Assembly (NCBI RefSeq): GCF_003856835.1
Contig: NZ_CP034145.1
Location: 2,108,001 to 2,172,000 of the forward strand
Source: Haloplanus aerogenes
GTDB lineage: Archaea > Halobacteriota > Halobacteria > Halobacteriales > Haloferacaceae
Length of the DNA: 64,000 bases
Direction of reading: 5' to 3'
Part shown: positions 18,046 through 64,000 of the stretch, in pieces
How the letters are laid out: every line of letters begins with the position of its first letter
Position numbering within the stretch: position 1 is the stretch's first letter
Position numbers and translations under genes: made by a program
The notes under the pieces: model-generated
The model's database searches: none
Told to the model about the DNA's origin: nothing
Seen by the model: only the letters and a program-made list of their open reading frames with translations

Positions 18046-19698
18046 CTATTCGTGCTCATCGACGAGACGCTCGATCCGAGACAGCGAATCGGCCTCGCTC
18101 GGCGTCTTGTCCTCCCGAACGGCGACGAACCGCGGGAATCGGAGCGCGTGCCCCGAGCCGTAGGTGGACGACGCCTGAATCTCCTCGTACCCCACCTCGA
18201 AGACGACTTCCGGCTCGATATCGACTTCGGTGCCCTCCTGGTTCCGGATCAGCGGTTCGAGGCGGTCGCTCAACTCGGCCAGTCGCTCGTCGGTGATGCC
18301 CGTCGCCACCTTGCCGATGGTCGCGAACTCGTCCTCGTCCCGCGCCGACAACAGAAACGTACCGAGGTGGTTCGCCCGGCGCCCCTCACCCCACTCCGCA
18401 CCCGTGACGACCAGGTCCAGCGTCTCCACGTCCGGCTTGCGTTTCAGCCAGTTCTGCCCACGCTTGCCCGGCGTGTACGCCGACTCGGGATTCTTGAGCA
18501 TGATCCCCTCGTGGCCCGCGTCGAGGGCCGTCGCCTCGTGGTCGGCGATGGTCTCCACGTCCTCGGCGACCGTGAGCGGCGAGAGTCCGTCCGACAACAC
18601 CGACGACAGCCGCTCCCGCCGGTCGAGAAGCGGCGCATCGAGCAGATCCGTCCCGTCGACGTGAAGGCAGTCGAACGCTCGGAACTCGACGGTCACCTCC
18701 TCGCGCATCCGCGCCACGTCGTGTTTCCGGCGGAATCGCCGGAGTACCTCCTGAAAGGGGAGCGGATCGCCCGCGTCGTCGACGGCGATGGCTTCACCGT
18801 CGAGGATGACGGGCACGTCGAGGTCGGCCACGAACTCGACGATCTCCGGCAGGGCGTCGGTCACGTCCTCCAGATTCCGGGAGAACACGCGGGTCTCGTC
18901 AGCCGGGTCGTGGTGGATCTGCACCCGTGCGCCGTCGAATTTGGTCTCGACGGCGACCGACTCCCACGCTTCGACGGCGTCGGCGGCCGTCCCGGTCTGG
19001 GCGAGCATCGCTTGCACCGGTCGGCCAACGGCGAGTTCGGCCGCCGCCAGCCCCGCTTCCCCCTCGTCGCAGGCGCGGACGGCCATCGATCCGTAATCGT
19101 TGGTGACCTGTAGGGCGCGTTCGACGTCGTCGGCCGGCACGTCGAACGCCTCGGCAATCGCGTCGCGGACGGTGCCCTCGCCGACCCCGATCCGCATCTC
19201 CGAGAGGACGAGTCGGGCGAGATAGCGCGCCGCGACCGGATCGGTCCGGTTGAACAGGCCGAAGAGCACGTCGACCTTGTGGTCGCGACTCCCTGCCCCC
19301 TCGGCGGCGGCGAGGTCCCGCAGGCGGTCGTCCACCTCGGCGACGGTCAGCGGATCGGGCTCGGCGGCGCCGAACGCGGCCAGGCCCTGTTGGCCGCCGA
19401 GATCCAGCGACTCGGCGACTGCACCGATCTCGCCAGCGTCGGCCAGCGTCGCCGCCACGTCGTCGGCGGTGACGTTCGGCCCGGCGGCGCGGGCGAGCGC
19501 CTCGTGACAGAGGTTCGGTCCGACGTCGAGGGTCGTCGAGTCCCACGCGGGGAAGACCCGCCCGAGCAACAGTCGGGCGACCACGGGAAGGTCGGCGCCA
19601 GCGTCGACGAATAGGTCCGCGACCAGCGATGTGATCGCGAGGTCGGCAGATTCGGCCTCGATGGCGTCGACGCGGTCGGCGAAGTCGGCGAAATCCAT
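18046..19698 (-). CDS. lig: ATP-dependent DNA ligase
   Basis: 550 residues, the usual length of archaeal replicative ligases. An N-terminal DNA-binding domain (about 1-220) is followed by the nucleotidyltransferase domain with the adenylated lysine Lys253 in the KFDG motif, then FSRNLEDVT, VEFRAFDCLHVDG and EGIMLKNPESAYTPGKRG with the late lysine motif, and an OB-fold C-terminus ending in a conserved FVAVREDK segment. It seals nicks during Okazaki fragment joining and repair. MDFADFADRV at 19698 is the family start; the open frame continues upstream only because it is antisense to the next gene. Confidence 0.93.
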   Translation of the reverse strand: MDFADFADRVDAIEAESADLAITSLVADLFVDAGADLPVVARLLLGRVFPAWDSTTLDVGPNLCHEALARAAGPNVTADDVAATLADAGEIGAVAESLDLGGQQGLAAFGAAEPDPLTVAEVDDRLRDLAAAEGAGSRDHKVDVLFGLFNRTDPVAARYLARLVLSEMRIGVGEGTVRDAIAEAFDVPADDVERALQVTNDYGSMAVRACDEGEAGLAAAELAVGRPVQAMLAQTGTAADAVEAWESVAVETKFDGARVQIHHDPADETRVFSRNLEDVTDALPEIVEFVADLDVPVILDGEAIAVDDAGDPLPFQEVLRRFRRKHDVARMREEVTVEFRAFDCLHVDGTDLLDAPLLDRRERLSSVLSDGLSPLTVAEDVETIADHEATALDAGHEGIMLKNPESAYTPGKRGQNWLKRKPDVETLDLVVTGAEWGEGRRANHLGTFLLSARDEDEFATIGKVATGITDERLAELSDRLEPLIRNQEGTEVDIEPEVVFEVGYEEIQASSTYGSGHALRFPRFVAVREDKTPSEADSLSRIERLVDEHE

Positions 19699-19788
19699 CG
19701 GTCCGGGCTCCGTCCGCGTGGCGGTTAAGCGCGACGGGTTCGGCGCGGAGGCATCGGATTCAAGACGCTGTATCGTGCAGGGAGGGGT

Positions 19789-21336
19789 ATGAACAGCGAC
19801 CTGGCGGCGCAGGTCCGAGCAGTGCTCGACGTCGACGTCTCGGAGTTCCGGGCGCAGGCGCAGGCAGACGCCGAGGTGGTCAAAAGCGAACTCAAGGACG
19901 GCACCTTCGACAACCACCGCTCGATCATCGGGCTGGAGTACGAGTTCTACGCCGTCGCGGACGGCCGGTGGCGCCAGGAGCGCGAGGACGCGGAGACGGG
20001 CGCGGAACTCGTCCGCGTTCCCCGTCGGCTCCTCGAACTCATCCGCTTCGAGAAGGAACTCGGCCTCCACAACGCCGAACTGACGACGAGCCCCCAGCCA
20101 CTGAACGCCGAAGGCCTCCGGGCGCAGTCGGCTGGCGTTCGCTCGCACCTCCTCTCTGCGCTCCAGACGACGCGCATCGAGGGGATGCGCCTCGTCAGCG
20201 ACGGCATCTGGACCATCCCGCCGTCGGGCGAGACGGCCCGTGACTACCTGACCGACAGCATCTCCGACGGCGGCGTCCGCATCGCGACGAACATGACCGA
20301 CGCGGTCCGGTATCACGCGATGGCCAACGGGCCGAACACGCCGACGCCGTTTACCGTCGACGCGCCACACGTCACCCTCGAAGCCGACACCGTGATGCCG
20401 GAGAGCCTCATCACGTCGATCCAACCACATTATCAGGTGCCCCACGCCTCCGACCTGCCGACCTACCACAACTACGCCCTGCGGGTCGCCGGACCCCTCC
20501 TCGCCCTCGGCGGCAACTCCCCCTTCTTCCCGCCGGACCTCTACGACGACGGCGTCGCTCCGGAGACGGTCGTCGCCGACGCGCGCGCCGAGAACCGCAT
20601 CTTCGTCTTCGAATCCGTCCTGAACAGCGAGAACGCCCAGAAGGTTCGGTTCCCGGAGGATCTGGACACCGTCGAGGAAGCCGTCGACCGCGTCGCCAAC
20701 GACCCGACGGTCGTTCCCATGCCCGTCGAGGGTGGCGACCGCTTCGACGACAAGTTCGCCACGCTCCGGCGCAAACACGGCACGTTCTGGCGGTGGGTGC
20801 GGCCGGTGTTCGACGGCGCCGACCGCTCCTCCGCCAACGCTCGCATCGAGTTCCGCCCCATCGCCGCGCAACCGACCGTCCGCGACTCCATGTCGTTCAT
20901 GGCGACGTTCGCCGGGTTGATGGAGAGCCTGCCACGGAACGAACACCCGGTGATCGACCAGGACTGGAGCGTCGCCCGGGAGAACTTCTACGCCGCCGCT
21001 CGTGAGGGGTTCACGAGCGATCAGCGCTGGATCACCAACAGTGGGGAGGAAACGACCGACACGGAGATGATCTACGACGACATCTTCTCACACGCCGTCG
21101 AAGGCCTGCGGAACGCCGGCTGTACCGAGTCGGACGCGGTGTCGTACGTCGCGCCGCTCCGGGCGCGCGTCGAATCGGGCATCACGCCCGCCCGGTGGAA
21201 GCGCGACCGCGTACGTGACCGGGTGGAGAACGGTGAGCCGCTCGGAAAGGCCATTCCTGCGATGCAGCGCGCCTACGTGGACGAACAGACGGAGACGCTC
21301 CTCGACGGGGCGTTCACCGACTGGTGGTCGCAGTAG
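19789..21336 (+). CDS. GCS2-like carboxylate-amine ligase family protein
   Basis: 515 residues. LEYEFYAV near residue 50, HNAELTTSPQPL (about 98-110) and RIEFRPIAAQPT (about 350-360) are the acidic substrate and metal-binding segments expected of the glutamate-cysteine ligase type 2 fold. Haloarchaea make gamma-glutamylcysteine as their main thiol, but I recall their verified GshA as a shorter protein, so the substrate here is open. The gene has its own upstream region, divergent from the ligase gene, and converges on psmB. A clear paralog of similar length lies at 58662-60137. Confidence 0.65.
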   Translation: MNSDLAAQVRAVLDVDVSEFRAQAQADAEVVKSELKDGTFDNHRSIIGLEYEFYAVADGRWRQEREDAETGAELVRVPRRLLELIRFEKELGLHNAELTTSPQPLNAEGLRAQSAGVRSHLLSALQTTRIEGMRLVSDGIWTIPPSGETARDYLTDSISDGGVRIATNMTDAVRYHAMANGPNTPTPFTVDAPHVTLEADTVMPESLITSIQPHYQVPHASDLPTYHNYALRVAGPLLALGGNSPFFPPDLYDDGVAPETVVADARAENRIFVFESVLNSENAQKVRFPEDLDTVEEAVDRVANDPTVVPMPVEGGDRFDDKFATLRRKHGTFWRWVRPVFDGADRSSANARIEFRPIAAQPTVRDSMSFMATFAGLMESLPRNEHPVIDQDWSVARENFYAAAREGFTSDQRWITNSGEETTDTEMIYDDIFSHAVEGLRNAGCTESDAVSYVAPLRARVESGITPARWKRDRVRDRVENGEPLGKAIPAMQRAYVDEQTETLLDGAFTDWWSQ

Positions 21337-21339
21337 GGT

Positions 21340-22077
21340 CTAGATCAGCGACTCGAAGTCCTTGTGCTTCGAGATGTCGACGCCCTCGTCGGTGACGACG
21401 GCGACGTTGATCCCGTTGCCGGACGCCAGGTCGCGTTCGACGGCGCTCTGGATGGCCTGCGCCGCGACGCCCCGCGCCTCGTCGATCGAGAGGTCGTCCT
21501 CGTACTCCTGTTCGAGAACACCGAGAGCGTACTGGCTCCCGGAGCCGGAGACGGCGTAGTCCTCTTCCATCATGCCGCCGAGGGGGTCGAGACTGTAGAC
21601 GTGCGCGCCGTCCTCGTCGACGCCGCCGAGGAGCGGCGAAACGATGAAGAAGGCCCCGGAGCGGAGGAAGTTGCTCGTGAGCGTCGACAGCGCTTCCATA
21701 CTCATCTCCTTGCCCCGACGGGTCTCGTAGAGGCTGGTCTCGGAGCGAAGCGAGCGGATGAGCGACTGGGCGGCCGACACCGATCCCGCGATAGTGAGGG
21801 CGGCGTTCGGGTGGATCTGTTCGACCTTCTGGACGTCCTTGCTGGAGACCATCCGGCCGGCGCTCGCGCGCATGTCGGTGGCCATGACGACGCCGTTCTC
21901 GGTCGAGAGGCCGACGGTCGTCGTGCCCGTTTTCATCTCCTTGTCCTCGCTACCCGCGGCAGCGAGGCGCTCGTCGGTGTCCGTGAATTCGCCGATCTCC
22001 GGCCCGAACACCGGGCGGTCCTGCCCGTCGAGACGGTCCTGCGTCCGTGAAAAGTCCTGATTCGTCGGGGTACGCAT
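21340..22077 (-). CDS. psmB: Proteasome beta subunit
   Basis: 245 residues. A propeptide of about 51 residues is removed at KTG/TTTVGLST, exposing the catalytic N-terminal threonine (Thr52). The active-site lysine/aspartate region (ATDMRAS) and the late SGSGSQYALGVLE and DEGVDISKH segments are typical. It forms the two inner rings of the 20S proteasome. Start at ATG 22077; a GTG directly before it is less likely. The alpha subunit gene is not in this window. Confidence 0.93.
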   Translation of the reverse strand: MRTPTNQDFSRTQDRLDGQDRPVFGPEIGEFTDTDERLAAAGSEDKEMKTGTTTVGLSTENGVVMATDMRASAGRMVSSKDVQKVEQIHPNAALTIAGSVSAAQSLIRSLRSETSLYETRRGKEMSMEALSTLTSNFLRSGAFFIVSPLLGGVDEDGAHVYSLDPLGGMMEEDYAVSGSGSQYALGVLEQEYEDDLSIDEARGVAAQAIQSAVERDLASGNGINVAVVTDEGVDISKHKDFESLI

Positions 22078-22127
22078 CACCTGCCCTTGCGGGGGCGCGC
22101 TGATAAATGCAACCCTTCGGTATCGAG

Positions 22128-56889: not shown

Positions 56890-57303
56890 TCAATCGAGTG
56901 TAACGTTGAGTCCAGTCTCGTGTTCGACGTTGTCAGTGACCGGACACCGCTCTTTGACGGCCGAAAGCCAAGCGTCGAGGTCAGCGTCGCCCTCCGTCTC
57001 AACCGAGAGGGATACGTCTAGTCCTTGCAGACCGGGACGGTCCTCGGAGTCCTTGCCCAGATACATCGCGTAGTTCACGTCACCCTCGACCGTTGCCTCG
57101 AGTGACACGATGTCGATATCCATGTCGCGGGCGACCATCGTCCCGGTCGAGTTGAGACAGCCCAGAACGGATCCGAGGAGATACTCGACGGGATTCACGT
57201 CGTGTCCGACGACGAACTCCCCGTCTTCAGTCGTCACTCGGGTCCGGTGCGGACTGACACGCGAAGCACTGACTTCGTAGTGTGTTAGTTTGGAATTACC
57301 CAT
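56890..57303 (-). CDS. OsmC-family protein
   Basis: 137 residues. GNSKLTHYEVSASRVSPHRTRV, then GEFVVGHDVNPVEYLLGSVLGCLNSTGTMVARDMD (in parts) with the resolving/peroxidatic Cys in the central helix, and ERCPVTDNVEHETGLNV with the second Cys. These are the two redox cysteines of OsmC/Ohr hydroperoxide reductases. It probably detoxifies organic peroxides with a thiol donor. Start at 57303, just 13 bp from repeat copy 6. Base composition is less GC-rich than upstream genes. Confidence 0.82.
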   Translation of the reverse strand: MGNSKLTHYEVSASRVSPHRTRVTTEDGEFVVGHDVNPVEYLLGSVLGCLNSTGTMVARDMDIDIVSLEATVEGDVNYAMYLGKDSEDRPGLQGLDVSLSVETEGDADLDAWLSAVKERCPVTDNVEHETGLNVTLD

Positions 57304-57316
57304 ACGAGTGTTTCGC

Positions 57317-57324
57317 TGCTGAAT
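57317..57324 (+). repeat. Cassette-border repeat copy 6 (core only)
   Basis: TGCTGAAT followed by GCAGTATAG. Only the 8-base core matches the family. It is 14 bp upstream of the OsmC start and points away from the gene, forming an outward pair with copy 1. Confidence 0.45.
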
Positions 57325-57518
57325 GCAGTATAGTTTGGGACCGACCGGTCCCCCTTCGAGCAAACCGCTGCGGGAACACCTGCCGCAAGAGCTGCGTGAA
57401 TCCACTGGCTTCGGCGTGCCGAGACCATCGGCGGCGTCCACCTGCTCATCGCCGACTCCGCTTTTATAACTGTCAGACCAGTACCACCGAAGTCGAACAG
57501 TTGCGAGCGATGTTGCGG

Positions 57519-57540
57519 CATACATAGCGCATATTCAGCA
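57519..57540 (-). repeat. Cassette-border repeat copy 2
   Basis: Minus strand TGCTGAAT then ATGCGCTATGTATG. Its plus-strand end ATATTCAGCACGCC is identical for 14 bases to the right edge of the inverted repeat at 60242. It points away from the NTF2-like gene that starts 100 bp later. Confidence 0.6.
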
Positions 57541-57639
57541 CGCCTCCCGGCTGGTCGGTCGTGTGTAATTCATTCATTGGTAACACCACCGCAGCGTGAA
57601 AATGCTACCAGTTCACACGTCTGGGCGTCCTCTGTGAGT

Positions 57640-58119
57640 ATGGAGAGCCAGCACATGAATCAATCACGTACCGAAGCAGACGAGCCCTCGAAGACAACCG
57701 CTGAAGAGGACGTCCGAGCTGCATCTGACCAGTTCTACAGTGCACTAGAAGAGATGATGAACGGGGATGCCGGTCCCATGGCGGAGATCTGGTCACACGA
57801 GGGCGACGTGACGGCCACGACCGAACTCGGTGGACGGGAGGAGGGCTGGGACGCCATCAGTGGGTCTATGGAGGGAGTCGCGGCAGCGTGTACGGATGGC
57901 ACGGCCACCCGCACGGACCAGCTCATCCGCGTCACCGGTGACCTTGCATACGAACTCTGCACCGAGTCGCTGTCGGCGACCTTAGCGGGTGAACCGATCA
58001 CCTGGGAGCACCGGGCGACGAACATCTATCGGAAGGAGGACGGCAAGTGGAAGATCGTCCACCAGCACGCCGACCGCAACCCCGAACTCGCCGAGAAAGT
58101 GGCAGACATGGATGCCTGA
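57640..58119 (+). CDS. NTF2-like (SnoaL/DUF4440-type) protein
   Basis: 159 residues. After an acidic, probably disordered stretch (1-25) the cone-shaped alpha+beta fold is marked by DQFYSALEEMMNGDAGPMAEIWSHEGDV (in parts), GGREEGWDAISGSME, and YRKEDGKWKIVHQHAD at the end. Such proteins bind or isomerise small hydrophobic molecules; the ligand is unknown. Start could also be the second Met (57655). It is in a module with the DUF5789-like gene. Confidence 0.72.
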   Translation: MESQHMNQSRTEADEPSKTTAEEDVRAASDQFYSALEEMMNGDAGPMAEIWSHEGDVTATTELGGREEGWDAISGSMEGVAAACTDGTATRTDQLIRVTGDLAYELCTESLSATLAGEPITWEHRATNIYRKEDGKWKIVHQHADRNPELAEKVADMDA

Positions 58120-58661: not shown

Positions 58662-60137
58662 ATGGACTCCCTGGCGCTCGTCCGGGCCACCCGCCGAGAG
58701 GAGGTCCACGAGGAGTTCGAACGGCGGATGACCGACCAAGCCGCGCGGCTGCGCGAAGCATTCGCTGACGGGCGGTTCGACGGAGGGTACACCCTCGGGC
58801 TCGAGTTGGAGGGCATCGCTGTCGACGGTGAGGAACGAATAGCCGCGGTTCCCGAACCCGCGTTCGGCACGGTCTGTGAACGCGAACTCGGCCGGCACAA
58901 CGCCGAGTTGAACACGCCAGCGACGGAGTTCACTCCAGAGGGTATCGACGAGCAAGTCGCCGCCATCACCGAGCGGATCGACCGTGTGAACCGGGCGTTC
59001 AGGGACGCGGGTCGTCGGTTCGTCACCGACGGGATGTGGACGATTCCGCCACGAGGTGGCTCGCTCGCGTACCTGACCGCGGTGGACCGCGACGACGACG
59101 TTGTGATCCCGCCGAACATGGCACCGGAGCCACGGTACTACGCCCTCAACGCCGACATCATGGCCCACGGACCGGTCGAACTCGACGTGTTCGGCTGTCG
59201 ACGCACGTTCCCCACTATCCTGGTCGAATCCCTGGCCACGTCGATGCAGATACACCTCCAGATGCCAACCTGCGAATTTCCGAACTACTTCAACGTCGCG
59301 CTCCGGACCCTCGGGCCGGTCCTCGCGCTGTCGACGAACGCCCCCTTCCTGCCACCGGATCTCTACGATGTGGATGATCCCGAGGTGGTGCTCGATGGTC
59401 CCGTCGAACACCGACTCCCCGTATTCGAAGCGATGAACGTGGGCGATCCGGGGAAGGTCCGGTTCCCACGGGATATCGAATCTCCCGTCGACGTCGTCGA
59501 GCGAGTGGTCGACGACCGCCGGTGTGCGCCGTACCTCCGCGAGTGGACCACGGACGCCCCTCGAGAGGGATTCGTCGACGAGTTCTGGGAGTTCTTGCAC
59601 GGACAGGGAACGTGCTGGCGGTGGGTGCGCCCCGTCCTCGGACCCGAGGGACCACGCATCGAGTACCGCCCGCTGGCGTCCCAACCGGGAGTCGATGACG
59701 TGGTCGGGTTGCAGGCGCTGGTCGTCGGCGTGATTCACGGCGTCGTCGCGACTGACCACCCGCTGCCCTCCCTGCCGTGGTCCGCGGCAAAGGAGTCGCT
59801 GTACGCCGCGGCGCGTGATGGCCTCGACGCCGATCTGGCGTGGGTCATCCGCGACGGCGACCGGACTACCGACCTCACCGTAATCTACGACGAAGTGTTC
59901 GAGCTGGCCCGCCGTGGACTCGAGGACCGCGGACTCGAACCGGCCCACATCGACGAGTTACTCGGGCCCGTCGCGGCCCGGTGGGATGCCCGGACGACCC
60001 CCAGCACGTGGAAACGGCGGCAGGTCCGCGACCGGATCGAGGCGGGCGAGGACCTCTCGGACGCGATAACCGGGATGCAACGCGAGTACATCCGACGAGC
60101 CGAGGCGACCGATTCCTTCGCCGAGTGGCTCGAATGA
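58662..60137 (+). CDS. GCS2-like carboxylate-amine ligase family protein, module copy
   Basis: 491 residues, paralogous to the protein at 19789-21336: shared segments include [46 protein letters not shown] and [10 protein letters not shown]. The acidic residues expected to bind metal and substrate are kept in ELEGI, HNAEL and IEYRP. It may ligate an amino acid to an amine or thiol; substrate unknown. The two paralogs look less than half identical, so this is not a recent duplication. It stands alone between border repeats. Confidence 0.65.
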
Positions 60138-60215
60138 CCGGTCGCCGTCCCGGGAGGCTTACGTCATCGATGTGAGCGAGAGTACCTGACTCTGTAACCC
60201 ACACCGGTATCGCCC

Positions 60216-60242
60216 TGCTGAATCTACTCCCTATATTCAGCA
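60216..60242. repeat. Cassette-border repeat copies 7 and 8 forming an inverted repeat
   Basis: TGCTGAAT-N11-ATTCAGCA, 79 bp after the stop of the GCS2-like gene. The right edge shares ATATTCAGCACGCC with copy 2. Confidence 0.6.
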
Positions 60243-60298
60243 CGCCACATCTATCAAATTCTGAGGGATTCTACAGAGCCGAGTTATCGCAACTGTGG

Positions 60299-60334
60299 AT
60301 AGATTCTCGCCGGGACAGTCCGGCGAGAATCTAT
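60299..60334. repeat. Perfect 15-bp stem with 6-nt loop
   Basis: ATAGATTCTCGCCGG, loop GACAGT, then its exact complement. It begins 22 bp downstream of the tfs stop (tfs is on the minus strand), so it could be a 3' RNA structure ending that message; no T-run follows. It could also be a relic of a mobile element. Confidence 0.55.
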
Positions 60335-60355
60335 GATGACTTCCGAGAAACTCAC

Positions 60356-60673
60356 TCAGTGGTCGTCTTCGCGCCACTTGTGTTCGCACTCGGTACAGAC
60401 GAAAAAGCGCGTCTCGGATTCGTCGGCCGAGCGGATCTGTTGCATATACCAGTAGGCTTCGTCGTTGTCACAGTTGGGACAGTTGGCACTCGTGGTGGGC
60501 AGGCCGCTGGAGCCGCCGCCGGATTCGATGATCTCCGACTCCTCCTGGGCCTGTGTGGTGACCATCTCGGCCTCCGCGGCCTCGTCACGAAGCGTCTCGT
60601 AGCCACACTGCGTGCAGACCCACTTGTCGCCCTCCGTCTGCATCATCGACCCGCATTCGTCGCAGAACTTCAT
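60356..60673 (-). CDS. tfs: Transcription elongation factor S (TFS)
   Basis: 105 residues. An N-terminal zinc ribbon (MKFCDECGSMM and WVCTQCGYE), a variable linker, and a C-terminal TFIIS-type zinc ribbon (CPNCDNDEAYWYMQQIRSADE, then VCTECEHKWRE) with the acidic DE pair that enters the polymerase active site to stimulate transcript cleavage. Minus-strand GGTTAAAGG lies about 30 nt before the ATG. Confidence 0.93.
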   Translation of the reverse strand: MKFCDECGSMMQTEGDKWVCTQCGYETLRDEAAEAEMVTTQAQEESEIIESGGGSSGLPTTSANCPNCDNDEAYWYMQQIRSADESETRFFVCTECEHKWREDDH

Positions 60674-60725
60674 GCTGGCTCGAATCCTGACGCTCGACTG
60701 CCTTTAACCCACGGATACGGCGCGT

Positions 60726-60983
60726 CTACGCGTCGCCGTCCGACTGCCCGGGTTCGCCCACCGCCTCGACCGGGAGGACGTTCTGGAGTTCGGCGTGCAG
60801 TTCGTCGGGACCGTGGAAAGCGTCGCTCCCGACTTCGGAGACGAGTTCCCCGAGGTTGGCCTCGCCGTCCGCGAAGGTGACGGTGACGTCGACGAATTCG
60901 GCGGCTGCGTCGTCGCGGGTGACCGGGTAGTCGAGTCGCTCGAACGCGGACTCGACTCGGCTCAGTTTCACGCGTTCGCTCAT
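60726..60983 (-). CDS. DUF5789-like protein, chromosomal copy
   Basis: 85 residues: MSERVKLSRVESAFERLDYPVTRDDAAAEF, VDVTVTFADGEANLGELV, then QNVLPVEAVGEPGQSDGDA (in parts). Family of unknown function. It follows immediately upstream of tfs on the same strand, a place I would expect for a conserved gene, whereas the second copy at 58203 is in a repeat-bordered module. Confidence 0.7.
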   Translation of the reverse strand: MSERVKLSRVESAFERLDYPVTRDDAAAEFVDVTVTFADGEANLGELVSEVGSDAFHGPDELHAELQNVLPVEAVGEPGQSDGDA

Positions 60984-61127
60984 ACCCGGTCGTACGACCC
61001 CTCGACACTTAGAGGCGTGGGCCCGGCGTGAACAGTTATGGCGAGAATCGAACCATGAGCAATCGCGAGTGTCTAGTGATGGGACTGGGCTGAGTGGAAG
61101 TCCAACTACCGGGCGTTTTGAGCGCTG

Positions 61128-61207
61128 ATACTGGCGACTGTAAGTCAATCAAGATACTCGTCACTCCGAGGCGACGAGTATCTTGAAACAGTTACAGCCG
61201 CCAGTAT
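61128..61207. repeat. 80-nt near-perfect inverted repeat
   Basis: Stems from outside in: ATACTGGCG / CGCCAGTAT (9 bp), CTGTAA / TTACAG (6 bp), CAAGATACTCGTC / GACGAGTATCTTG (13 bp), with one-base mismatches and a 6x6 internal loop between, and a 10-nt terminal loop. 28 of about 35 possible pairs form. It lies in a 290-bp gap and has no coding capacity; it may be a structured RNA, a MITE-like element or a recombination site. Confidence 0.7.
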
Positions 61208-61218
61208 GAGTCAGCAGT

Positions 61219-61242
61219 TCTATCGCTTAGTCCCGCGATAGA
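61219..61242. repeat. Second hairpin next to the 80-nt inverted repeat
   Basis: TCTATCGC-N8-GCGATAGA, 11 bp to the right of the large inverted repeat and 33 bp downstream of the stop of the minus-strand gene at 61275. It may be a 3' end structure for that gene. Confidence 0.5.
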
Positions 61243-61274
61243 TCCTCTCTTGTAACTTGCACCTCCGAAACTGG

Positions 61275-61649
61275 TTAACGAACCACTGTCCGGAGATACT
61301 CGAAACAGTCCTCCAGATCAGCGACCGTCACGTCCCCGCGGTCGAGCGTTACGAGATAGCCCGTCTTTCGCCCAGTAGGATCAGTCTGTACGGCGACGAG
61401 TGCCTCGTCGAATATGTGGACTGTTCCGGTGAGCTGTCCACATTTGAACTCGCTTTCGAGTCGTTGAGACATTAACTGTCCGAGTGTGATTTCGTCGACG
61501 ACGCGCTGATCTTCGCGGTCCGTGTAGAGACTTCGGACATCATCTCGCATCCGCGTCTCGAACTCTCCGTTTCGAAAGCTCGTGACTGCCCGGAGTGAGT
61601 CCCCATACTGCGTAACGAGTTGTTCCCACGCTTCGTCAACCGGCAACAT
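61275..61649 (-). CDS. Haloarchaeal protein of unknown function
   Basis: 124 residues. Predicted helical first half (VDEAWEQLVTQYGDSLRAVTSF) and a C-terminal beta region HIFDEALVAVQTDPTGRKTGYLVTLDRGD (in parts). One Cys each in FKCGQ and LEDCFEYL. I recall small haloarchaeal DUF7522-like proteins with this pattern but am not sure. Minus-strand TATTAAAG sits about 27 nt upstream of the ATG, fitting a leaderless start. Confidence 0.6.
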   Translation of the reverse strand: MLPVDEAWEQLVTQYGDSLRAVTSFRNGEFETRMRDDVRSLYTDREDQRVVDEITLGQLMSQRLESEFKCGQLTGTVHIFDEALVAVQTDPTGRKTGYLVTLDRGDVTVADLEDCFEYLRTVVR

Positions 61650-61718
61650 ATCGTCTCCAATCCCCCGCAGCGTCTTTAATATCCCGCCGATTACCGTGTT
61701 GGTAGAGTGATGCTTGAT

Positions 61719-61755
61719 GCGGAGCTGTGACCTCTCTCAGGGAGGTCAACTCCGC
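61719..61755. other. Bipartite hairpin downstream of the gene at 61800
   Basis: GCGGAG and CTCCGC (6 bp) enclose TGACCTC-N7-GAGGTCA (7 bp) with small internal bulges. It begins 45 bp past the stop of the minus-strand gene 61800-62483, consistent with a 3' end structure. Confidence 0.45.
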
Positions 61756-61799
61756 GATCGGACTTGCGTTGAGAGCAGCACCAATCGGCCGCCGTCGTC

Positions 61800-62483
61800 T
61801 CAGCGGGCATCGTAGACGCCATCGATATCGACCGCCACGCAATCGGCTCGCTGTTGCGTCTTTGAAAGTGCCTGTTCTTGTTTCTCTAAAATCTCGTCTA
61901 CCTTTTCGATCCGGGTCGTCTCGTCTTTCGGTGGTATGTCCATAATGAATCCGCCGAACATGAAGAGCGCCCGTTCGTACTCTCGACCCTTTCCGTCAGG
62001 GCAGGCTTGACTGAATTTCTGGCAGAAGTCTTCGTACTTGGATGGACTGTGGCTCGCTGCGGTGTACAGGTGGTCTCCTTTGCCGCGATGTCCCCACAGA
62101 TAGACGTATGCATTCCAGACACGACGGTCGTAAATTGGGAATTTCACCGAGTACTGATCCGGTTCGCTTGCCGCCAGATGGAGCAGAAAGGCCGGTGTGA
62201 CGAGACTCCCCGAGTTTAGAATCTCGTGGTCGCACAGCCGCGAAGACAACGATTCGACTGCGTTTTGCTGGGGGCAGCGGACGTACTCCTCGAAATCCAC
62301 CTGTTCGATTATCGGCGCTATGTCGTCAAACGGGATGCTTCGATTCAGACCTTTCCAGTTCCAGAGCGACTCGGCCCGATCTAGCAGCTGTGTGCATTCC
62401 ATCGCATCGCGGTATTTTTCACCGTAGTTGGTGTAGACGGGATACAGCGAGGACCAATAGTCGACATTAAGTCGTGTGGACAT
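61800..62483 (-). CDS. Accessory protein of unknown function
   Basis: 227 residues from ATG 62483 (a GTG three codons earlier is possible). It is unlike its neighbours: less acidic, richer in Cys, Tyr and Lys, and encoded by noticeably less GC-rich DNA. VDYWSSLYPVYTNYGEKYRDAMECTQLL, then a mid region with FPIYDRRVWNAYVYLWGHRGKGDHLYTAA (in parts) and a Lys/Glu C-terminus. The composition suggests horizontal transfer. I recognise no domain; the WNAYVYLWG segment vaguely recalls HhH-type DNA-repair proteins but is not enough for a call. Confidence 0.6.
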   Translation of the reverse strand: MSTRLNVDYWSSLYPVYTNYGEKYRDAMECTQLLDRAESLWNWKGLNRSIPFDDIAPIIEQVDFEEYVRCPQQNAVESLSSRLCDHEILNSGSLVTPAFLLHLAASEPDQYSVKFPIYDRRVWNAYVYLWGHRGKGDHLYTAASHSPSKYEDFCQKFSQACPDGKGREYERALFMFGGFIMDIPPKDETTRIEKVDEILEKQEQALSKTQQRADCVAVDIDGVYDAR

Positions 62484-62789
62484 ACAGTTCACCCGATTCT
62501 TTGATCAAATAATTGTAGTGGTGGCCTCAGTATTGCTCACGGAAGACGGTTGTGAGCGAGGGTGAGACGGTCAGGTTCCGGGCCATCGTGCTCGGCCCCT
62601 CTCAGAACTCTCGACAAATTATCACAATTGACCGTGGGTGTGACGGGACGAACGGTACCCGTGGTGAGGTTCCAGAATGAAAGTCACCCGGGGTCGATCC
62701 TCTAACAGATTCCCGACACTTTGAGGACGCTGTTCCAAGGGCCAGCCCGTGCAGAAAGCTTTTCTCCGGGTATGAGACACAAATCGTCC
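62484..62789. other. Non-coding gap between divergent genes
   Basis: 306 bp. Near 62505 the minus strand has an AT-rich TTATTTGATC that can act as the promoter of the 61800-62483 gene; near 62756 GAAAGCTTTTCTC fits a TATA box for the LURP-one-like gene. In between I see no gene, only scattered short repeats such as ACGGTACCCGT. Confidence 0.4.
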
Positions 62790-63392
62790 ATGTCCGAGCC
62801 CTCCACGTCCGCATCGGGATCGTCACCGTACGATATCTCCACAGTCAATCTCGACGATGACCGCTACGAGGTCAAGCAGTCGGCGGTACGGAACAAGTAC
62901 ACCGTCCGCGACAGTACCGGTGAGGTCGTCCTGCGCGGGAAGCAGAAGATGTTCAAGATGAAAGAGGAGTTCCCGTTCGTAACCGGCGATGGCGAGGACG
63001 CGTTCACGGTGAAAGCGGGCGGCATCATGGACGTGGCCGGGAACTACGCAATCACGGATTCGGGGACCGGCAACGAGGTCGTCGTCCTCGACGAGGACTT
63101 CTCGTTGTTCGTGGAGAACTGGACGATCCGTGACCCCGAGACGGGGGAAGCGCTGGCGACCATTCGATCGAAGAGCAAACTTTTCGCAGCGCTCCGGCAC
63201 CTCATCTCCATCGCGAACCTCATTCCGAACAAGTACGAGATATTCGACGCCGACGGCGAGCATGTCGGCGACATCGAGGGACAGCTCTCGCTGCGGGATA
63301 CCTACACGGTCAGCATCGACGACGCCAGCTCGATCCCGAAAGAGGCGGTCGTCGCCGCCGCGTGTATTCTCGACGCTCTCGAAAACCAGTAA
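62790..63392 (+). CDS. LURP-one-related protein
   Basis: 200 residues. RYEVKQSAVRNKYTVRDSTGEVVL, KQKMFKMKEEFPF and WTIRDPETGEALATIRSKSKLF form the repeating beta strands of the Tubby-like/LURP-one fold, with SIPKEAVVAAACILDALEN as the central helix. In plants and phospholipid scramblase relatives the fold binds lipids; the archaeal role is unknown. Start MSEPSTS (62790) suits the TATA box at about 62756; MRHKSS at 62772 is possible. Confidence 0.75.
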   Translation: MSEPSTSASGSSPYDISTVNLDDDRYEVKQSAVRNKYTVRDSTGEVVLRGKQKMFKMKEEFPFVTGDGEDAFTVKAGGIMDVAGNYAITDSGTGNEVVVLDEDFSLFVENWTIRDPETGEALATIRSKSKLFAALRHLISIANLIPNKYEIFDADGEHVGDIEGQLSLRDTYTVSIDDASSIPKEAVVAAACILDALENQ

Positions 63393-63552
63393 TCTGACAT
63401 CTCGTACGCTGTAGTCTCCGGGTATCATTTCGATAGCTGAAAGGAAGATAGACTATGGGTGGCGACTCTATCAGACGCACAGACGCGCAAGTCGCTCGCA
63501 GACCTCGCGTTGCCGCAAACCGGACTCGACAGCAAAGCGACGGCTAACATTA

Positions 63553-63564
63553 ATGTGTACACAT
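63553..63564. promoter_or_regulatory. Palindrome before vapB
   Basis: ATGTGTACACAT is a perfect 12-bp palindrome ending 16 bp before the vapB GTG, overlapping where the promoter should be. Antitoxin-toxin complexes usually bind such sites to repress their own operon. Confidence 0.5.
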
Positions 63565-63580
63565 ACCCATACGCAAAACA

Positions 63581-63841
63581 GTGGCCTCGAAGAATATCGC
63601 GATCAAGGAAGACGTCTACGAGCGGCTCAAGGCGCACAAACGAGGGGGCGAGAGTTTTAGTGAGACCCTCGATCGCCTTCTCCACGAACTCGATTCCGAT
63701 TGGCGGACGAACGCAGGCTTTCTCACAGACGAGGAGGCCGCCGAACTCGAAGCAGAAGTCGTCCGGGGCCTCGAAGATCTCGGCGAATCGTTCGACGGAC
63801 TCGGCGACGAGATCGATGAGCGCCTCTCGGGAGAATCGTGA
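63581..63841 (+). CDS. vapB: VapB-type antitoxin
   Basis: 86 residues from GTG. ASKNIAIKEDVYERLKAHKRGGESFSETLDRLLHEL (in parts) is the N-terminal DNA-binding strand-helix-helix; the acidic C-terminal helix would wrap the toxin. It overlaps the toxin start by GTGA, the normal layout of VapBC operons. The 188 bp before it contain no gene that I can support. Confidence 0.8.
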   Translation: MASKNIAIKEDVYERLKAHKRGGESFSETLDRLLHELDSDWRTNAGFLTDEEAAELEAEVVRGLEDLGESFDGLGDEIDERLSGES

Positions 63842-64000
63842 AGCTCGTCGACGCCTCGTTTCTGATCGACTACGCCAAAGGTGACGACGCTGCAATCGCC
63901 TACCTGATTACCCACGACGACGAGGAGATCGGCGCGTCGACGATCGTTCTGTCCGAACTCTACCGCGGGCTGATGATCACGCAGGAGATGCCTCAGGAAG
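63838..64000 (+). CDS. vapC: VapC PIN-domain toxin, cut by the window end
   Basis: The first 54 residues begin MKLVDASFLIDYAKGD with the PIN-domain catalytic Asp5, and STIVLSELYRG gives the second acidic residue (Glu40). PIN toxins are magnesium-dependent RNases that cut tRNA or rRNA. The gene continues beyond position 64000. Confidence 0.8.
   Translation, partial: MKLVDASFLIDYAKGDDAAIAYLITHDDEEIGASTIVLSELYRGLMITQEMPQE

Follow-up and report, generated by a model that had tools for sequence, protein, structure and literature searches.

The core gene and its paralogues

The window, by which we mean the whole 64,000-nucleotide stretch of Haloplanus aerogenes DNA analysed, contains a long open reading frame (the core gene) that is divergent from a gene for an ATP-dependent DNA ligase (LigA) and convergent with one for a proteasome beta subunit (PsmB); further downstream it holds a second member of the same family (copy 2), near an OsmC-like gene (Table 1). 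The core gene is a real gene: its third-position GC content is high and its composition acidic, as in the window's real genes, and it has full-length relatives in 143 of 145 Halobacteria genomes. A minus-strand open reading frame of 966 residues (18046-20946) overlaps much of the core gene in antisense, the LigA frame remaining open upstream of its probable start.

Table 1. Features of the core gene locus, the copy 2 locus and the third family member of the genome
Feature	Position	Strand	Remarks
LigA, ATP-dependent DNA ligase	18049..19698	-	Probable start 19698; divergent neighbour of core gene
Core gene, clade-A long GCS-fold ligase	19789..21336	+	515 aa from ATG
GhExE signature GLEYE, residues 48-52	19930..19944	+	E50, E52, putative Mg/ATP site; G48, E50, E52 invariant in 46/46
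ELGLHNAE, residues 90-97	20056..20079	+	E90, N95, E97 invariant
QPH, residues 212-214	20422..20430	+	Q212, H214 invariant; H214 aligns with GshA H139 in the profile alignment
RIEFR, residues 352-356	20842..20856	+	R352, E354, R356 invariant; E354/R356 align with GshA E238/R240
PsmB, proteasome beta subunit	21340..22080	-	PF00227, E 3.6e-52; convergent neighbour of core gene
OsmC-like protein	56893..57525	-	PF02566, E 1.3e-12; near copy 2
SnoaL-like/DUF4440 protein	57577..58116	+	PF14534, PF13474; between OsmC and copy 2
Copy 2, clade B, 491 aa	58662..60137	+	Second family member; catalytic-type residues intact
TFS (archaeal TFIIS-like)	60359..60673	-	PF01096, E 3.5e-19; convergent neighbour of copy 2
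Copy 3, clade B	G000:C1:3133598-3135106	-	41% identical to core gene; same genome, outside the window

Copy 2 was the only other convincing tblastn match to the core gene in the window (58665-60128, plus strand, 37% over 518 columns, E 1.8e-82), and the identity between the two is 37-40%. The first-pass annotation counted two members, which is right for the window; the genome, however, has a third (copy 3). Another genome of the window's genus carries a second clade-A-like copy, 69% identical to the core gene (G135:C1:2821830-2823356). Just downstream of copy 2, GC content is 0.58-0.57 (window 60001-64000) against 0.63-0.71 elsewhere, a possible sign of acquired DNA; no tRNA that could mark an island was found in the window.

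Predicted fold and catalytic-type residues

The AlphaFold2 models of the core gene product and of copy 2, both confident (pLDDT 94.9, pTM 0.94 each), place these proteins in the glutamate-cysteine-ligase fold, closest to the carboxylate-amine ligase YbdK and to plant glutamate-cysteine ligase (GCL). YbdK was the best PDB match of the core gene model (Foldseek E 8.7e-12; VIA-align Z 33.0 over 345 residues at 2.8 Å), followed in VIA-align by plant GCL (Z 29.9), yeast GCL (24.8), bacterial GshA and GshF (18.3-20.9), Dop/PafA (13.0-16.9) and glutamine synthetases (14.2 and below), in lists that showed GCS, PafA/Dop and glutamine-synthetase-type entries only, so that the absence of other folds from them is no test. 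Copy 2 gave a similar overall picture, with YbdK at Z 34.3.

The core gene has no Pfam match of any kind at E 10, including GCS2 (PF04107) and Pup_ligase, in searches whose HMMER filters can drop weak matches, and neither it nor copy 2 has an NCBIfam match at E 0.01. At E 1, copies 2 and 3 have no GCS2 match, copy 3 has no NCBIfam match, and copy 2 touches only NF010043 in NCBIfam (13.7 bits against a cut-off of 409). GCS2 was matched by 5 of 46 aligned family members (best E 1.7e-5), so single members may pass the cut-off. None of the core gene, copy 2 and copy 3 matches the GshA equivalog model NF010045. The EgtA (ergothioneine) model TIGR03444 gave no match for the core gene and 17.2-19.8 bits, against a cut-off of 370.8, for the actinobacterial relatives described below.

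In a comparison of profiles, the family profile matched one of haloarchaeal GshA (15 GshA sequences plus YbdK) with Prob 95.6 and E 1.2e-8 over 301 columns. Against the single E. coli YbdK sequence it was not significant (E 0.16), and against PDB sequences it found no GCS entry, the only match being an acyl carrier protein at E 1.5, which we take as chance. The GCS2-like nature claimed for these proteins thus holds at the level of fold and profile, the core gene itself being without a Pfam match.

Fifteen residues are invariant in all 46 members aligned (G48, E50, E52, E90, N95, E97, R174, Y175, Q212, H214, R270, R338, R352, E354 and R356), and the core gene's invariant residues are also unchanged in three actinobacterial relatives. 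In our reading of the profile alignment with GshA, E50/E52 pair with E18/E20, E90 with E54, E97 with E61, H214 with H139, N243 with N168, R270 with R183, R338 with R229 and E354/R356 with E238/R240. The core gene product thus has, in its predicted model, the fold and, in its sequence, the GhExE motif of the GS-fold carboxylate-amine ligase superfamily, for which GhExE is the signature of the Mg/ATP site (available text of PMC2588565). The first histidine of the GshA LHVH motif (H137) is replaced by Q212 in all family members examined and, because of this, the acceptor side may differ from that of GshA. In clade-B copies of one family (f3; L190, L193-L197 and L207) an acidic low-complexity insert, estimated at about 65-140 residues, separates the GhExE motif, itself intact, from the conserved block that follows it.

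A near-universal clade A and its neighbourhood

Members of the family are present in those 143 of 145 Halobacteria genomes and in all 58 genera, with a best match per genome of E 4.8e-148 or better, and these best matches are all at clade-A level. In the rest of the phylum, two genomes match: a first search found 53 of 294 genomes (51 of them Halobacteria) and a profile search of the phylum 81 of 392 (79 of them Halobacteria). Relatives outside the archaea were seen only in a plasmid collection; viral contigs scanned with the family profile gave 19 pattern matches, none of them a relative, and we rejected a viral origin on this account.

In a tree of 72 rows the core gene falls in clade A (20 rows, SH-aLRT 99), and copies 2 and 3 fall in clade B (43 rows, SH-aLRT 100). 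The tree was made by a quick method; because the program flagged that the long actinobacterial and GshA branches meet, its rooting is unsure.

The order Top6A - LigA - core gene - PsmB is found, whole or in part, at loci of several families, and a Natrinema relative annotated 'hypothetical protein' likewise has an annotated ATP-dependent DNA ligase upstream. PsmB is convergent with the core gene within 3 kb in at least 47 of 130 genomes, and no other orientation within 3 kb was listed; the 130 are those of the 143 genomes for which a psmB position was available, at one psmB per genome, so that an adjacent copy in one genome (G001, L133) was missed. Two of the 145 Halobacteria genomes lack the family, G018 and G050. 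In G018 the core gene has been lost from between retained neighbours, PsmB and LigA now adjoining at a distance of 144 bp (L216, 7112-9652); since this loss left both neighbours in place, the core gene is dispensable at least in that genome. The synteny of clade A with LigA and PsmB gives no clue to the substrate.

In Haloferax volcanii LigA is HVO_1565 and PsmB is HVO_1562 (available texts of PMC7776575, PMC8406309 and PMC2841640), and in the literature on locus tags HVO_1562-1565 we found nothing naming HVO_1563 or HVO_1564. Judging by other Haloferax loci, the orthologue of the core gene would be expected between these ligA and psmB genes. The literature on GCS-type ligases in haloarchaea or together with PspA, within the portions available, held nothing recognisable as about this family. 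For H. mediterranei, the accessible part of PMC9240420 names gshA alone as GCS2 family; the text of PMC8305020 contains neither gshA nor GCS2.

A family separate from GshA

The core gene is not GshA. The GshA of this genome is another gene (G000:C1:1716767-1717609), scoring 685.6 bits with NF010045, which disposes of a possibility that the first-pass annotation had left open, namely that the canonical GshA was one of the long proteins; its proposal of an unassigned GCS-fold ligase family apart from GshA is borne out. A strong GshA-type match (GCS2, at least 225 bits) is present, apart from the family gene, in all 97 Halobacteria genomes examined; NF010045 was run on this genome's GshA and the GshA-type calls in the other 96 rest on GCS2 matches. 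Haloarchaea use gamma-glutamylcysteine, the H. volcanii GshA being HVO_1668 (according to the available text of PMC7278568). Long branches (2.84 to either side of the root as drawn) divide the family from GshA/YbdK in the tree. We conclude that these proteins of about 490-520 residues form a distinct and unnamed family.

Besides the strong GshA-type matches, 37 of the 97 genomes hold 43 further, weaker GCS2 matches (22-65 bits). These lie in open frames of 370-702 residues, away from the family's places, and point to one or more other GCS2-type groups.

Clade B and its association with PspA

The distribution of clade B is patchy: at least 53 copies (counting matches down to 396 bits, below which the listed matches fall at core-gene places) occur in at least 48 of 145 Halobacteria genomes. 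At least 26 of the 53 lie within 20 kb of PspA, in a count that partly includes second PspA copies, and in all 26 the two genes share a strand with PspA upstream; for the other 27, copy 2 among them, no listed PspA is that close. All 12 genomes of the window's genus have copy 3 behind PspA, and in each of them the PspA stop overlaps the copy-3 start by one base (TGATG). Copy 3 is thus physically coupled to PspA. Such an overlap is found neither at copy 2, which lies beside TFS, nor at the clade-A gene. Our distances to PspA and DgcN run between the ends of Pfam or tblastn matches and real gene gaps are smaller, a printed 102 bp being in fact the one-base overlap.

At many clade-B loci a DgcA-like gene (L-Ala-D/L-Glu epimerase / N-acetyl-D-Glu racemase) lies downstream in convergent orientation, with a DgcN-like DUF1611 gene behind it. 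The former scores 225.1 and 261.2 bits against cut-offs of 343 and 400, so its membership is not confirmed, and the latter 267.6 bits against 480. DgcN lies within 20 kb of at least 21 of the 53 clade-B copies, on the opposite strand in all 21. In the genome of the window, copy 3 and the DgcA-like/DgcN-like pair are 4-5 kb apart, with other genes in the interval. PspA and DgcN also occur within 20 kb of each other in at least 64 of 85 genomes without clade B, and in at least 28 of 40 with it (each genome contributing a single DgcN and a single PspA position, in 131 and 139 genomes respectively). The epimerase/DgcN link is therefore primarily one with the PspA locus and only secondarily one with the ligase, and the closeness of clade B to DgcN and DgcA may be positional only. 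These genes are convergent with the ligase and not in its operon. Conserved position among related genomes is in part inheritance, and a binomial p for the closeness to PspA, which rests on the false assumption of independent genomes, is given no weight.

In the genomes without clade B, PspA and the DgcN-like DUF1611 gene are convergent in 60 of 64, which describes a recurrent haloarchaeal PspA-DgcN locus. Two surveys of PSP systems, in the portions available (PMC11237479, PMC9239133), mention no epimerase or DUF1611 in their main text, and no GCS-type ligase under the terms looked for; the literature listed for DgcN and DgcA showed nothing recognisably haloarchaeal.

The neighbourhood of copy 2 differs. 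Within the window's genus copy 2 is private to this genome (an orthologue in 1 of 12 genomes), and the best matches to it in the other 11 are the copy-3 orthologues behind PspA, at 47-50%. The OsmC-like gene reported near copy 2 is indeed there. OsmC and SnoaL-like genes were beside no other family locus scanned (L114-L127 and L199-L210; 12 loci with 1.5-kb flanks), in a scan made with one OsmC query at E 1e-9 that could miss a distant OsmC. The redox link drawn from OsmC is so far a property of one genome, and, since OsmC does not recur as a neighbour, we reject it as a general feature. It is PspA that recurs beside the paralogue clade.

Possible function and alternatives

We propose that the core gene product is probably a carboxylate-amine ligase of the GCS fold that depends on ATP and Mg, from a long non-GshA family and likely gamma-glutamyl in its chemistry, with clade A serving a housekeeping role and clade B concerned with a related compound. 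Going by the fold, MgATP would phosphorylate a carboxylate and an amine would attack it, giving an amide and phosphate. With less certainty, the acyl group would come from the gamma-carboxylate of glutamate or of some small molecule that contains glutamate, since the conserved acidic and basic residues of GshA have invariant counterparts here. The product of clade A would be a gamma-glutamyl amide or peptide with a housekeeping role. Clade B, meaning copy 3 and through shared descent copy 2, would synthesise or modify a related compound, in the case of copy 3 and its relatives at the PspA envelope-stress locus that also carries the DgcA-like and DgcN-like genes.

Could the long protein instead be a second gamma-glutamylcysteine ligase, a GshA isozyme providing ordinary redundancy in thiol synthesis? 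Its fold and its set of acidic and basic residues match GshA, haloarchaea do use gamma-glutamylcysteine (PMC7278568, as available), and the closest relatives that have a name carry the label 'glutamate-cysteine ligase family protein'. We nevertheless consider this unlikely, given the strong GshA-type match beside the family gene in every one of the Halobacteria genomes examined, the long branches between the groups, the glutamine in place of the first LHVH histidine, and the tie of clade B to PspA. That the enzyme runs in reverse or not at all, either hydrolysing amides as Dop does or serving as a regulatory homologue without activity, is most unlikely. The deamidase-depupylase Dop does have the same fold (Z 16.9), but the best overall structure matches are ligases, and an inactive protein would not be expected to keep its catalytic-type positions invariant in both haloarchaeal clades and in the actinobacterial relatives.

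The proteasome gene next door raises the question of a protein-modifying ligase like PafA, the Pup ligase. The fold is common to PafA and Dop (Z 16.0 and 16.9 for the core gene, 19.7 and 20.1 for copy 2), and the convergent PsmB recurs as described above; YbdK and plant GCL are, however, far closer in structure. PsmB is convergent rather than co-transcribed, with LigA on the other side, and 83 of the 130 genomes have their listed PsmB farther away than 3 kb. Moreover copy 2, with the higher PafA/Dop scores, has no PsmB neighbour, and the core gene has no Pup_ligase match in Pfam, leaving this explanation a very slight chance. We give scarcely any credence to a redox module in which copy 2 and OsmC form a thiol-peroxide system: the two genes are 1.1 kb apart but on opposite strands with the SnoaL-like gene between them, copy 2 occurs in one of 12 genus genomes, and OsmC accompanies no other clade-B locus scanned.

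Taking the housekeeping carboxylate-amine ligase as the preferred reading, a further-reaching proposal would be that Halobacteria have a pathway dedicated to small peptides or gamma-glutamyl amides. In it clade A would make a basal product in nearly every species, and PspA-coupled clade B, with the DgcA-like and DgcN-like genes, would make a derivative containing D- or L-glutamate that has a protective or signalling role at the stressed membrane. We regard this as rather unlikely, and found no description of such a pathway in Halobacteria in the parts of the literature available. The suggestion that the long proteins make other small peptides gains modestly from the nearness of clade-B copies to DgcA-like and DgcN-like genes, and is weakened by these genes staying with PspA where the ligase is missing.

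A near-universal haloarchaeal enzyme, with an intact GCS-type site and no Pfam or NCBIfam match, suggests that a core metabolite may have been missed. In the window's genus its paralogue overlaps the gene of PspA, the membrane-stress effector, which hints at where such chemistry is used.

Relation to known systems

Among solved structures, YbdK (TIGR02050; PDB 1r8g, 1tt4) is the closest in fold; at 12-14% identity it is about 140 residues shorter, and the core gene matches no family model. The second closest is plant-type glutamate-cysteine ligase (PDB 2gwc; 377 residues aligned, 18% identity), which the PDB profile search did not pick up by sequence. The plant enzyme has a defined cysteine acceptor and is under redox control. 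Haloarchaeal GshA (the NF010045, HVO_1668 type) occurs in the same organisms and shares the GCS fold, GhExE and the corresponding acidic and basic positions, but is about 360 residues long against about 500 for the family, is a separate gene in 97 of 97 genomes, and has H137 where the family has Q212. PafA and Dop of pupylation belong to the same fold superfamily and are of similar length, and clade A often has a proteasome gene next to it; they differ in a much weaker fold match, in the missing Pup_ligase match and in the convergent, rather than co-transcribed, arrangement with the proteasome gene.

The long architecture itself is shared with actinobacterial proteins of about 495 residues (such as WP_068522771.1 and WP_121549401.1), which have the same invariant catalytic-type positions. 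The family profile matches three of them at full length (Prob 100, E 1.1e-45, 454 columns); all three pass the Pfam GCS2 cut-off, and two are annotated 'glutamate-cysteine ligase family protein'. Identity is nonetheless only 25-26%, on a long branch, and no PspA, LigA or PsmB is present in their two annotated neighbourhoods.

For the coupling to PspA, the nearest parallel is bacterial: one operon (available part of PMC11237479) combines PspA with an ATP-grasp ligase akin to glutathionylspermidine synthetase, so that there too PspA is coupled to a small-molecule amide ligase. As described there, that operon has an ATP-grasp enzyme and polyamine genes, whereas here the enzyme has a GCS fold, the hosts are Halobacteria and the neighbours are epimerase-like and DgcN-like. 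A recurring link between PspA and small amide ligases, of which the bacterial case would be one instance, would become testable in genetically tractable haloarchaea.
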